A DNA stretch of 64,000 bases, taken from NCBI RefSeq assembly GCF_014396975.1, contig NZ_CP060719.1, positions 1,460,001-1,524,000 on the forward strand, given 5' to 3'. Made by a program: the position numbers and the translations under genes. Shown here piece after piece: positions 49,999-53,894 of the stretch. Under the pieces are notes generated by a model. That model did no database searches. It saw nothing but the letters and a program-made list of their open reading frames with translations, and was not told the origin of the DNA. How positions within the stretch are numbered: position 1 is the stretch's first letter; each line of letters opens with the position of its first letter. The stretch is from Thermomonas carbonis (GTDB lineage Bacteria; Pseudomonadota; Gammaproteobacteria; Xanthomonadales; Xanthomonadaceae).

Positions 49999-50790
49999 AT
50001 GGCCGTCAGGATCGAAAAGAAAATCAAGGGCTACGCCGTCGTCACCCCCGAGGACAAGGCGAAGGAAGCGGTCAAGGTCGACTCCGTCAGTCGCGCCCAG
50101 GCGGAGGCCGACCTGCCGGTCGCCGACGTCATCCAGATGCACGAGCGCATCGAGCGCCCGGAAGTGCTGATCGGCAGCACCTACAAGATCAAGTCGCCGC
50201 TGGTCGAACACGCCATGTACGTGACCATCAACGACATCGTGCTCAATGCCGGCAGCGACCATGAACACCGCCGTCCGTTCGAGATCTTCATCAACTCCAA
50301 GTCGATGGAGCATTTCCAGTGGATCGTGGCGCTGACCCGGATCATGTCCGCCGTGTTCCGCAAGGGCGGCGACGTGACCTTCCTGGTCGAGGAAATGAAG
50401 GCCGTGTTCGACCCGAAGGGCGGCTACTTCAAGGCCGGTGGCGTGTACATGCCGTCGCTGGTCGCCGAGCTCGGCATGATCATCGAGGACCACCTGAAGT
50501 CGATCGGCATGATGCACGACCCGGAGATGAGCGACGCGACCCGCGCGCTGATCGCGGAGAAGCGCGCGGCGTTCTCCAAGCTGGGCTCAAAAAAAAACTC
50601 TGACGTGACCCCGGTCGCCGGCGTGATCGCCGACTCCACCGCGGACCACCAGGAAGAGATCGAAGTCACCGGCGACGGCGCGAGTTTCCCGCCGACCGCG
50701 ACGATGTGCCACAAGTGTTCGACCAAGGCGCTGGTCCTGATGGACGGGTGTGCGACTTGTTTGAATTGTGGGTATTCGAAGTGCGGGTGA
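49999..50790 (+). CDS. Ribonucleotide reductase C-terminal subunit, NrdJb (TSCPD domain plus zinc/redox tail)
   Basis: 263 aa. The TSCPD-type domain (about 50-175: [56 protein letters not shown]) and a C-terminal cysteine-rich tail ([28 protein letters not shown]) correspond to the end of single-chain NrdJ. The tail cysteines would reduce the active site of NrdJa after each turnover. A run of nine A at 50589-50597 encodes the linker before the tail. Separated from nrdJa by the H1-like gene. Ends where the lower-GC island begins. Confidence 0.85.
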
Positions 50791-50812
50791 TCTCGCAGTA
50801 ACACGCTTTTAC

Positions 50813-50854: not shown

Positions 50855-51271
50855 ATGGCAAAGCACAAAGTTTTTATCAGCTACGATCATTCCGAGGACG
50901 CTGTCTACAAATACCTCTTGTGTGCATGGGATGCGAACCCATCGTTCGATTTTGAATTCGACAATCGAAGCCCCAATGTTGCCATCGACAGTACCGATGC
51001 GGCGGCAATTAAGACAGCACTTACAAAGAAAATGAAGGAATCCACCCATCTACTTGTACTCGTCGGCGAAAAGTCGAACGAGAGTAAATGGATGAAGTGG
51101 GAAATCGACCGAGCAAAAGATACCGATACGAAGCTTAAGATTGCTGCAGTGAAACTCGCTAAAGCGAACATATGTCCGGCTGGTCTACTGGGATGCGGAG
51201 CTTCGTGGGCGACCAGCTTTGAGCGCGATCGAATCATCGACGCTCTCAACGGTGCCACTAATAATTACTAG
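50855..51271 (+). CDS. TIR-like domain protein (MTH538/ThsB-type)
   Basis: 138 aa, a stand-alone TIR-like domain. The first strand KHKVFISYDHSED, the stretch with MKESTHLLVLVGEKS and helix KWMKWEIDRAKD, whose WEI-type glutamate is the conserved active-site position, match the TIR-like family that includes ThsB of Thoeris antiviral systems. Such proteins make or cleave NAD-derived molecules. Codon use and base composition are visibly lower in GC than the flanking genes, a sign of transfer. The next gene starts 17 bases after its stop, so the two form an operon. The start ATG 50855 gives the standard N-terminus. Confidence 0.8.
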   Translation: MAKHKVFISYDHSEDAVYKYLLCAWDANPSFDFEFDNRSPNVAIDSTDAAAIKTALTKKMKESTHLLVLVGEKSNESKWMKWEIDRAKDTDTKLKIAAVKLAKANICPAGLLGCGASWATSFERDRIIDALNGATNNY

Positions 51272-51288
51272 GTAAAGCGGCCACACTA

Positions 51289-52524
51289 ATGAACGCACCT
51301 AGGCAGCCAGTTTGCTTCGTAGTAATGGGTTTCGGCCGCAAGACAGACTACGAGTCGGGTCGAACCTTGGATCTCGATGCAACTTTCAGCGAAATCATCT
51401 CTCCAGCCGCTGAGGCTAAGGGGTACCGTTGCATCCGAGCTGACAAGATTTCGCACTCGGGGCTCATCGATCTGCCGATGTATGAAATGCTTTTACGAGC
51501 AGACCTGGTTATTGCAGATATTTCGACGGGCAATGTAAACGCTGTGTACGAACTTGGTGTAAGGCATGCGCTGCGCCCGCGATCGACAATCATCATAAAA
51601 GAGTCGAAGGGCCGCCTTCACTTCGATCTGAATCACGTAAACACGTTTGAATATGAACATTTAGGGGATGACATAGGCTCACGTGAGGCGCGTCGGGCGC
51701 AAGCGGATTTAGGGCTCCTCATTGAAGCTACAACGAACTCAAATCGCCCGGATAGTCCCGTTTACACATTTCTTCCGAAGCTTCAGCAGCCACGTTTAAC
51801 AGATGAGGAGTACGAAGATCTCCTTGACGCCGCCGAAGACGCACAAACGCGCATCACTGCACTCCTAGACGATGGGCAAAATGCAATTGACCAGAGCGAT
51901 TTCGAAAAAGCGGTAGTTGCATTTTCTTCGGCTAGAGAACTTCGGCCAGATGACACATACATCCTGCAACGACTGGCTCTGAGTACTTATAAGGCGTCTA
52001 AGCCTTCTAAGTTGTCAGCCTTAATCGATGCTTTGCGAATTGTCGATCAATTAGGCCCTGATGACTCCAACGACCCAGAGACGACGGGGCTGGCTGGCGC
52101 TATCCATAAGCGTCTTTGGCAAGAGACAAAAGATGTTGTTCAGCTGGAACGTGCAACCAAGTTTTATCGTCGTGGATTCGAGATTCGACGCGACTACTAC
52201 AACGGCGAGAATCTCGCTCTCTGTTATGACCTTTTAGCCGACCAATCGACTGGGGCTGAAAGAATCTTTTATAGGGTTTCAGCTGAGCGTACGCGTCACG
52301 AAATCGTTGCGCTTTTAACCGCTATAACGGCAGCTGACACATTTCAGGATCGCAGCGATAGGAAGTGGATATTTGCAACGCTTGCGAATTCCTACTTGGC
52401 ACTCGGGCGCTTGGATGAGGCTCGCGCAGCGGAAAATGAATTTCGTAATGAACTGCCAGCGGATTGGGAAGTGCAGTCTTTCGAAGAAGGGAAGGTCGCT
52501 GCTCAGCGAGACCGGAGCACATAG
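51289..52524 (+). CDS. Nucleoside-deoxyribosyltransferase-like domain fused to TPR/TRAF-binding-like helical region
   Basis: 411 aa. Residues about 5-110 (CFVVMGFGRKTDY, GYRCIRADKISHSG, ADLVIADISTGNVNAVYELGVRHAL, STIIIKE) are the fold of putative nucleoside 2-deoxyribosyltransferase-like or TIR-like sensors/effectors; the YELG glutamate is the expected catalytic residue. The remainder (about 180-400) is all-helical with TPR-like pairs (DFEKAVVAFSSARELRPDD; WIFATLANSYLALGRLDEARAAEN). The FYRRGFEIRRDYYNGENLALCYDLLA segment resembles the MAP3K TRAF-binding (DUF4071-like) family. Low GC like its partner. Inferred: cell-suicide or signalling component acting with the TIR protein. Confidence 0.65.
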   Translation: MNAPRQPVCFVVMGFGRKTDYESGRTLDLDATFSEIISPAAEAKGYRCIRADKISHSGLIDLPMYEMLLRADLVIADISTGNVNAVYELGVRHALRPRSTIIIKESKGRLHFDLNHVNTFEYEHLGDDIGSREARRAQADLGLLIEATTNSNRPDSPVYTFLPKLQQPRLTDEEYEDLLDAAEDAQTRITALLDDGQNAIDQSDFEKAVVAFSSARELRPDDTYILQRLALSTYKASKPSKLSALIDALRIVDQLGPDDSNDPETTGLAGAIHKRLWQETKDVVQLERATKFYRRGFEIRRDYYNGENLALCYDLLADQSTGAERIFYRVSAERTRHEIVALLTAITAADTFQDRSDRKWIFATLANSYLALGRLDEARAAENEFRNELPADWEVQSFEEGKVAAQRDRST

Positions 52525-52530
52525 CGAAAC

Positions 52531-52790: not shown

Positions 52791-53894
52791 ATGCACACTT
52801 TTGCGCGTAGAGCTTCGTTATGTGTAGCCGCTTTAGCTGTGCTTGCAACGCCTGCATACGCTTACAAACTAGCAACCAAGGCCTCAGCCGAAGAACGTCG
52901 ACTGGCCGGAATCACAAATAGTTCTTGGACAGCGGCGCTTTCTTACATCGCTGCGCGCGGCATGCCGCTGTTGACTGAACCGGTCCACGAAGAAGCTACG
53001 AACAGAATCTACGGATGCAATGGCGATGTGTGCGCCGGTGCTGAGGCCACCCAGGCGCCTGCTGCAGTGCTCTCCGGCGTGCGATGGAATGACGATCCAC
53101 CCTTTCGCATGACAGCGCAGCAGGCGCGAGGCATGGGGTGTCAGACCGCGTCGACTATCCGTTTTGAGACGCAGCCAAATTGTTGGGTAAGCCTGTTCCG
53201 TGATGCGGAAAAGCGCGCCGCCAAAGGCGCGAAGTACGGTCCAGGCGACGCAATGCTTTATCGCACCCACTTCGGTGACCTTCAATTTCTTCACGCGATG
53301 GCCAGCCGAAACGGCGAGCTTGCGCGAGACACAAAGCAGCGATTGATGGACTGGTTCGAATTCACCTGGCGCTCTGCGCTTGGCGAATACACGTTGGATA
53401 CAAGGCTGAAAAGCATCACGTCCAACCAAACCATCGTGGCGGCATTTGGAAAAACCGACTGGCGCCTGCTTGATCTATACACGCAGGGTGCGAGTGGCGG
53501 ATTGCGGGGGCGTGTAAGCGACGTTGCGTTCGGGTCATTGCTTCATGCGTTGGAAGATAGCTACGCAGCCGGGCACGCCGCGCGCGAGGAGTCCAGCGGG
53601 AGCGCGCGTTGTTATGCGGGTGACATTAGTGTTGAAGCGCCAGGTGCGATCCTCGCGTTCCATTCCTACAGTCAGCAGGATCACGAAGCACATGAAGAGG
53701 CTGACAGCCGTGCCAAGTTCATGGCGGATTTTCAGCAGCCAGGGAACGTAGTGGACGTTGGGCGCGCGTTAGTGCGAGCCCGGGCACAACGGCTGCCTTG
53801 GGAAACCATGCGTCCGATGTTCGACTGTCTCCTGACGCTGGAAAGGCCAACCACGCCGGCAGGTCCGGGCGAGGGGTTCGAGAACTTGAACTGA
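52791..53894 (+). CDS. Secreted zinc-dependent phospholipase C/P1-nuclease-like protein
   Basis: 367 aa with signal peptide (about 1-25, cleavage after AYA). No close family recognised by name, but the spacing of metal-ligand residues matches the PC-PLC/S1-P1 nuclease fold: H66 in VHEEATNR, D101/D102, H160 and H168, then H252-x3-D256-x5-H262 (LHALEDSYAAGH) and H298-x3-E302. Predicted trinuclear-zinc hydrolase acting outside the cytoplasm on phospholipid or nucleic acid. RBS GTGGAG before ATG 52791. Base composition is intermediate between island and chromosome. Flanked on both sides by the GTCAG repeat. Confidence 0.6.
   Translation: MHTFARRASLCVAALAVLATPAYAYKLATKASAEERRLAGITNSSWTAALSYIAARGMPLLTEPVHEEATNRIYGCNGDVCAGAEATQAPAAVLSGVRWNDDPPFRMTAQQARGMGCQTASTIRFETQPNCWVSLFRDAEKRAAKGAKYGPGDAMLYRTHFGDLQFLHAMASRNGELARDTKQRLMDWFEFTWRSALGEYTLDTRLKSITSNQTIVAAFGKTDWRLLDLYTQGASGGLRGRVSDVAFGSLLHALEDSYAAGHAAREESSGSARCYAGDISVEAPGAILAFHSYSQQDHEAHEEADSRAKFMADFQQPGNVVDVGRALVRARAQRLPWETMRPMFDCLLTLERPTTPAGPGEGFENLN

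Follow-up and report, generated by a model that had tools for sequence, protein, structure and literature searches.

What does a pair of low-GC genes, sitting in an otherwise GC-rich chromosome of Thermomonas carbonis, do for its host? The pair lies on a 64,000-nucleotide stretch of contig NZ_CP060719.1 (positions 1,460,001 to 1,524,000), which was analysed as a whole and is referred to here as the window. An earlier note, made from the letters of the window, had described the pair as a candidate new immune module, composed of a TIR-like protein and a protein with a deoxyribosyltransferase-like N-terminus and a TPR-like C-terminus. Our analysis partly supports this reading. We give an even chance to the pair being a Thoeris-like phage-defence module, with the TIR protein as signal maker, the TPR-S part of its partner as receptor and the partner's N-terminal DRHyd part as effector. 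The features discussed below are collected in Table 1.

Table 1. Features of the gene pair and its left border, in window positions.
Feature	Position	Strand	Remarks
TSCPD-domain gene, conserved left border of the acquired stretch	49999..50790	+	PF12637, E 4.4e-8
TIR gene	50855..51271	+	ATG at 50855, stop at 51271, 138 residues, stand-alone ThsB-type
E83 codon, predicted catalytic glutamate of the TIR protein	51101..51103	+	aligns with active-site E89 of EcThsB2
DRHyd-TPR-S gene (ASK-like partner)	51289..52524	+	411 residues, predicted receptor plus effector
Residues 1-150: DRHyd part at the N-terminus (nucleoside deoxyribosyltransferase/DNPH1-like), predicted effector	51289..51738	+	
E88 codon, predicted catalytic glutamate of the DRHyd part	51550..51552	+	aligns with YELG of DNPH1
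Residues 175-411: TPR-S domain plus the helices behind it, predicted to sense the ligand	51811..52521	+	

Both open reading frames are present as the earlier note had claimed, on the same strand and separated by 17 bases. The TIR frame has an alternative GTG start at 50768, which overlaps the upstream gene; TIR homologues mostly have 138 residues (120 listed of 622 found). The low GC content noted earlier is real: 47.7% in the TIR gene and 50.6% in the partner gene, against 67.4% in the window outside the island. A scan of the window in 100-base steps found no equally GC-low stretch of the same length that does not overlap the pair. Both reading frames are intact, and every residue that is invariant in the relatives is retained. 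A scan for promoter-like sites (one, with 1.6 expected) and terminator-like sites (four, with 2.3 expected) gave nothing convincing.

The gene to the left of the pair, encoding a TSCPD-domain protein, is found in 24 of 25 genomes of the genus, counting that of the window. Twelve loci were aligned to the window, one being the window itself. In ten of the 11 loci from other genomes, homology ends at 50788-50791, the end of the TSCPD gene, and in L066 it ends at 50774; past this border, only short scattered repeats still align. We compared the downstream side by tblastn with seven relatives (L069-L075), of which 9.4-9.9 kb were in view. The TIR gene, the partner gene and the window genes at 52791, 54461, 55298 and 56927 were not detected in any of the seven stretches, and the next shared DNA is 58.5-64 kb of the window in six of them, being missing from the stretch of L073. 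At this site the relatives hold other DNA, among it DUF3800 in L072 and transposition genes of the TnsB/TniB/TniQ type in L073. Therefore, the pair occupies an insertion site that varies within the genus and immediately follows the TSCPD gene (window 50791). Both genes were apparently acquired horizontally.

Behind the pair, the repeat CAGGGGTCAGAGTCGAC occurs at 52530, 52566, 52716 and 53935 (two exact and two near copies; 0.01 expected), and a 26-base match to it is also present in the relative L059. A 367-residue gene at 52791-53894 was considered as a third component and rejected: at E<=1 neither Pfam nor the PDB gave a match to its product, PADLOC gave none, and the single NCBIfam match is far below the cut-off, and the gene is separated from the pair by the repeats. 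By eye, this product has a likely signal peptide, and its stretch LLHALEDSYAAGH recalls zinc-dependent phospholipase C. A cupin gene in the window matches Cupin_2.

The TIR protein matches the ThsB_TIR family (Pfam PF08937) with 64.1 bits (cut-off 21.2, E 1.7e-17), and its predicted fold matches ThsB structures. Its best PDB profile match is EcThsB2 (E 2.9e-9), and in that alignment F7 and E83 face Y8 and E89 of EcThsB2. E83 is the glutamate of the WEI motif that the earlier note had singled out. Both F7 and E83 are present in 120 of 120 listed homologues (the window's own included), of 622 found. According to the accessible part of PMC11204291, the tyrosine is a feature of the ThsB of TM-macro Thoeris, while phenylalanine or alanine usually takes its place in TIRs that act as NADases. 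Because F7 and E83 match active-site positions and are invariant in the listed homologues, the protein looks like a working NADase-type TIR, and we predict that it is likely an NAD+-processing signal maker. Its identity across phyla, 59-72%, is unusually high for a defence protein. The NCBIfam equivalog ThcB4, a component of Thoeris type III, scores 16.7 bits against its cut-off of 220.

The partner protein is matched by the TPR-S family (Pfam PF20308) over residues 204-312 with 82.5 bits (cut-off 27.6, E 3.6e-23), and by MAP3K_TRAF_bd (PF13281) with 24.1 bits, which is exactly the cut-off. The TIR and TPR domains read by eye in the earlier note are thus both borne out by profile matches. The proposed likeness to the TRAF-binding region of ASK kinases is supported too, the best structural match of the partner's predicted model being ASK1. 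The TPR region has an ASK1-like predicted fold. Identity with ASK1 is 12%; the full-length ASK1 alignment has an rmsd of 19.4, and the relative placement of the domains therefore differs from ASK1. Pfam gave no kinase match in the 411-residue partner at E<=1. Four residues (G267, Y293, N308 and W360 in window numbering) are invariant across 11 TPR-S parts from three kinds of fusion. Genome G000 has another TPR-S match, weaker than its first (L002, G000:C1:2127153-2127395), inside a 713-residue open frame.

The first 150 residues of the partner contain the motif ADLVIADIS...YELGVRHA, and the pattern ADLVIAD...NAVYELG described earlier is present, with E88 as its glutamate. No Pfam family matches the DRHyd part at E<=1, PF05014 not being among the matches, and its phmmer alignments with DNPH1 are weak (E 0.17-0.58). 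A PDB profile search with the partner alignment A3 returned only weak matches to the helical part and no DRHyd match. The predicted model has an alternating strand-helix order in this region, with pLDDT partly 59-75. In one related locus (L005), PF05014 matches a DRHyd-like neighbour with E 0.0023, below the family cut-off. A PADLOC model named 'Effector' and described as TIR matches the DRHyd part (E 8.9e-7), as it does in L007, L022 and L082; we take this model to derive from CBASS.

In the weak alignment with DNPH1, E88 faces the glutamate of YELG, and this position is glutamate in 120 of 120 listed partner homologues (own included), of 3860 found and 7998 scored. The same weak alignment places M64, invariant in the homologues listed, in the column of DNPH1 D80, the residue mutated in DNPH1 entries. 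An invariant D61 stands three residues before M64, next to an alignment gap, and strand 1 of the DRHyd part holds an invariant cysteine, C9. The domain retains one key residue (E88). Because the D80 column holds M64 and strand 1 holds C9, it may act on another substrate, or may serve for ligand binding only.

How regularly do the two genes occur together? A pattern-limited scan of genomes via the TIR protein gave 15 loci, with TIR identities of 59-72%. Eight of these encode a DRHyd-TPR-S protein with both parts matched (L005, L007, L008, L012, L015-L018). TPR-S is over the Pfam cut-off in a further four (L009, L010, L011 and L013) and, with 27.4 bits, just below the cut-off of 27.6 in L014. 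The contig of L004 ends inside an open reading frame with a weak Abhydrolase_1 match. In L006 the TIR gene has no adjacent TPR-S gene; a DRHyd-TPR-calcineurin protein is encoded 1.6 kb off and a DRHyd-TPR-S protein about 8 kb off.

Among plasmids, 56 records match the partner, 41 of them over at least 80% of its length, and 30 are on plasmids typed conjugative. We viewed 20 of these loci, picked to avoid near-copies. A TIR gene lies within 5 kb of the partner in 16 (by annotation, Pfam or profile), counting L096, where it is a 111-residue fragment behind an insertion sequence. The four loci with no TIR within 5 kb are L094, which is cut by an IS26 directly downstream of the partner, L095 and L099, which are records without gene annotation and gave no TIR profile match, and L100. 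By eye, one open reading frame in L095 has a TIR-like start. The TIR type of the window is rarer than the partner, being found on nine plasmid records, four of them among the 56.

A virus collection contained nine loci with partner-type matches. Three (L079, L080 and L082) encode full-length DRHyd-TPR-S proteins, each with an adjoining TIR; L081 is cut inside the gene, and five loci have DRHyd-only matches. A pattern search for the TIR in this collection found none. In annotated phage records, the window's TIR has 23 matches at 30-35% identity, SN10 included, and the DRHyd part has 36, none over 80% of the partner. In an even phylum sample of 398 genomes, the partner profile was found in 17 (three near full-length) and the TIR profile in eight. 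Both occur within about 5 kb in four genomes (G000, G266, G071 and G014), the co-occurrences in G014 and G071 resting on weak TIR matches 4-5 kb away. Among 277 genomes sampled from the G071 family, the partner was matched once and the TIR six times, in each case weakly, and 48 genomes sampled from the class of G014 gave no match at E<=1e-15.

Two further comparisons bear on the pairing. Over ten adjacent pairs, TIR distances rise with partner distances (r 0.75, permutation p 0.0004); the loci are not all independent, as L019/L020, L021/L101 and L023/L092/L093 resemble each other. Contigs of at least 3000 bases were compared among the matches listed, equal size being taken to mean the same contig. 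Eleven contigs are common to TIR and DRHyd-TPR-S (one being the window's own genome), nine to TIR and hydrolase-TPR-S, and three to all three, compared with 0.3-0.4 on average and at most three in a shifted-size control. The module is rare, and its parts tend to travel together. The pair recurs across distant bacteria. Neither of the outcomes that the earlier note had named as refuting its reading, a lack of both domains or a rare pairing, came about.

The domain in front of TPR-S varies among the relatives. On a tree of 22 TIR rows, six of them unlabelled (L006, both L010 TIRs, L011, L014 and L103), the TPR-S protein beside the TIR clade begins with DRHyd in 12 rows. An alpha/beta hydrolase takes this place in L009 and L010 (Pfam) and apparently in L004. 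A TIR_2 domain does so in L013, and also in L102, whose TIR is more distant. The labels require four changes, and well-supported branches force at least three of them for DRHyd; on the TIR tree, L004 with its hydrolase is the sister of L008 with its DRHyd (support 84/80). Shuffled labels need equally many changes, the partner labels being no more clustered than by chance, and the tree therefore reveals exchange but no pattern. The hydrolase versions hold AHSMG and RDEFVP...GNHLE, which we read from the motifs as an intact catalytic set. A search with the hydrolase-TPR-S protein gave 791 relatives at E<=1e-10 (7997 scored). TIR and TPR-S are thus kept while the domain at the N-terminus changes, which is what an effector role of this domain would predict.

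Single loci can hold more than one such protein. One island (L010:7125-11461) has two TIRs and two TPR-S proteins, one with DRHyd and one with an alpha/beta hydrolase, and three contigs (lengths 6974, 22315 and 298759) carry TIR, DRHyd-TPR-S and hydrolase-TPR-S.

Many relatives have further genes close by. A SLATT/DUF4231 gene is present in 9 of the 20 viewed plasmid loci and 4 of the 15 genome loci; five of the nine plasmid loci were used to build the profile, and so match by construction, and are annotated DUF4231. In L005, SLATT was confirmed by Pfam SLATT_3 and SLATT_1. Patatin phospholipase genes are found in L011, L014, L017, L026 and L076. Since many relatives also hold SLATT or patatin genes, the partner may be a regulator in those that carry them. 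In the accessible part of PMC9503650, SLATT is found paired with phage TIRs and is predicted to be an effector that acts on membrane permeability under the control of ADP-ribose derivatives. Neither SLATT nor patatin is present in the stretches seen of L015 (open reading frame list) and of L021, L022 and L101 (annotation). Profile search found no SLATT elsewhere in the window, and phmmer with single relatives found no patatin, alpha/beta-hydrolase-TPR-S or 187-residue ALAGRRID protein there; searches of the genome with SLATT_1 and STALD gave no matches, as did their positive controls. Other defence-type neighbours in relatives are further TIRs and macro/DarT. In L103, a related TIR stands beside SLATT with no TPR-S gene in view.

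Some neighbours deserve mention in their own right. The ALAGRRID protein just named has 183-194 residues (133 in L011) and is encoded beside or near the TIR in L004, L009, L010, L011, L013, L017 and L102, and by eye in L014 and L095. Most copies start near ALAGRRID and contain CSAACGADLLAL. We considered it as a SLOG protein; the likeness is by eye, and the members tested have no convincing Pfam, PADLOC or PDB match. Near the TPR-S gene in L019, L020, L028 and L098, and by eye in L076 and L082, there is a cassette of a TIR, a QueC-like synthase and an HhH-GPD-type DNA lyase, joined by a PfkB-type kinase in the annotated plasmids. The cassette TIR of L076 carries a short C-terminal TGT match. 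The cassette is possibly a deazaguanine-linked conflict system. A SIR2-TIR fusion (SIR2_2, TIR_2; L011:13433-14707) lies two genes downstream of DRHyd-TPR, behind patatin.

How might the pair work? Infection would cause the TIR protein to turn NAD+ into a nucleotide signal, which would be bound by the ASK1-like TPR-S half of the partner. The N-terminal DRHyd domain would thereby be switched on and hydrolyse a nucleotide pool, so that the infected cell would be killed or stalled. A signal maker, a receptor and an exchangeable effector, as in Thoeris, are the simplest account because TIR and TPR-S are constant and the enzyme-like front domain varies. This domain exchange lends indirect support to the division of labour proposed in the earlier note; the antiphage role, a soluble NAD+-derived signal, TPR-S as its receptor and DRHyd as the killing enzyme are what we infer.

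The same observations can be arranged differently. The TPR-S protein could be a scaffold that binds the TIR protein and a phage component, with TIR assembly depleting NAD+ and no diffusible signal. The covariation of TIR and partner would suit such a direct complex, as would two points from the accessible parts of the literature, namely that ASK1 works through protein contacts made by its N-terminal and TPR parts (PMC10972558) and that TIR domains work as assemblies (PMC11204291). However, a pure scaffold leaves unexplained the intact-looking hydrolase site found in the DRHyd place, and the related TIR of L103 occurs beside SLATT with no TPR-S gene in view; we regard a direct complex as unlikely. 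Still more doubtful is the reverse order of events, in which DRHyd-TPR-S would detect infection and release a nucleotide product, leaving the TIR protein as the effector that depletes NAD+. The invariant E88 suggests an enzyme, and for some systems DRHyd enzymes have been predicted to make signals, as far as the accessible parts of PMC9503650 and PMC7159879 go. But it is the TIR, not the DRHyd part, that stays constant across partners, and the domains that can replace DRHyd, lipase-like or TIR, are of a more effector-like kind.

The pair might also serve no antiviral purpose and be a stress or plasmid-conflict switch, given its frequency on plasmids, the strong conservation of the TIR and the fact that ASK1 itself is a stress sensor (accessible part of PMC10972558). 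The neighbours elsewhere are nevertheless of defence type (further TIRs, SLATT, patatin, macro/DarT) and the pair is also found on three contigs of the virus collection, and we hold this to be slightly less probable again. Least probable of all, in our estimate, is that the window's pair is a remnant that has lost a membrane effector. The frequency of SLATT/DUF4231 genes near its plasmid and genome relatives, with none in the window, would fit such a loss, but four related loci likewise lack both SLATT and patatin in the stretch seen, and both window genes are open with their invariant residues kept.

The preferred reading, a Thoeris-like module, can be widened. Tentatively, and with rather less than even confidence, we suggest a modular system in which a near-constant TIR serves ASK1-like TPR-S receptors whose killing domain can be swapped (nucleotide hydrolase, lipase-like hydrolase or TIR), some loci having two receptors, and in which the receptor half of animal ASK stress kinases would descend from such a bacterial second-messenger receptor. 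If the proposed reading is right, a compact two-gene system would reveal what TPR-S senses in bacteria and perhaps, by extension, inform on the stress kinase ASK1, whose front half is built alike. Nature's swapping of the N-terminal domain amounts to a clean experiment, with one kind of TIR, one kind of receptor and three kinds of killing domain.

Where does the pair stand among known systems? Its architecture is not new, and the earlier claim of novelty fails on this point because TPR-S and the MAP3K link are already in Pfam; the TPR-S family, the MAP3K resemblance and the 'TRAFs-binding' annotation all stand in the databases. Conflict systems with DRHyd and TPR-S, and the link to ASK, were reportedly described by Burroughs et al. 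(2015 NAR) and Burroughs and Aravind (2020 J Bacteriol). In the literature covered, mostly short of full text, we found no experimental work on a TIR/DRHyd-TPR-S pair, and no description of the TIR-clade pairing or the N-terminal exchange.

Thoeris type I, with its SIR2-SLOG ThsA, has the same layout, in that a ThsB-type TIR of small size is followed or preceded by a partner combining an effector domain with a predicted sensor. In the window, however, this partner is DRHyd-TPR-S and has no SIR2 or SLOG match at E<=1, in agreement with the earlier remark that no ThsA-like gene adjoins. Thoeris with a TM-macro ThsA (the His-ADPR class of EcThsB2) provides the best PDB match of the TIR, and several TIRs per locus are found in relatives of the pair. 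Unlike that class, the window's TIR has F7 where the class-marking active-site tyrosine stands, and its partner has no macro domain match at E<=1 (Pfam). We therefore rejected an assignment to standard Thoeris: the partner does not fit and, for the TM-macro class, neither does the active-site tyrosine. The TIR-SLATT pairs of Firmicute phages, as given in the accessible part of PMC9503650, share a related TIR, and SLATT is frequent near the module's relatives, whereas the window has no SLATT and pairs its TIR with DRHyd-TPR-S. Animal ASK kinases (ASK1/MAP3K5) differ from the window's partner in having a kinase domain and in the placement of their domains. Within the bacterial TPR-S family (PF20308; proteins annotated 'TRAFs-binding' or DUF4071), the partner is a clear member.
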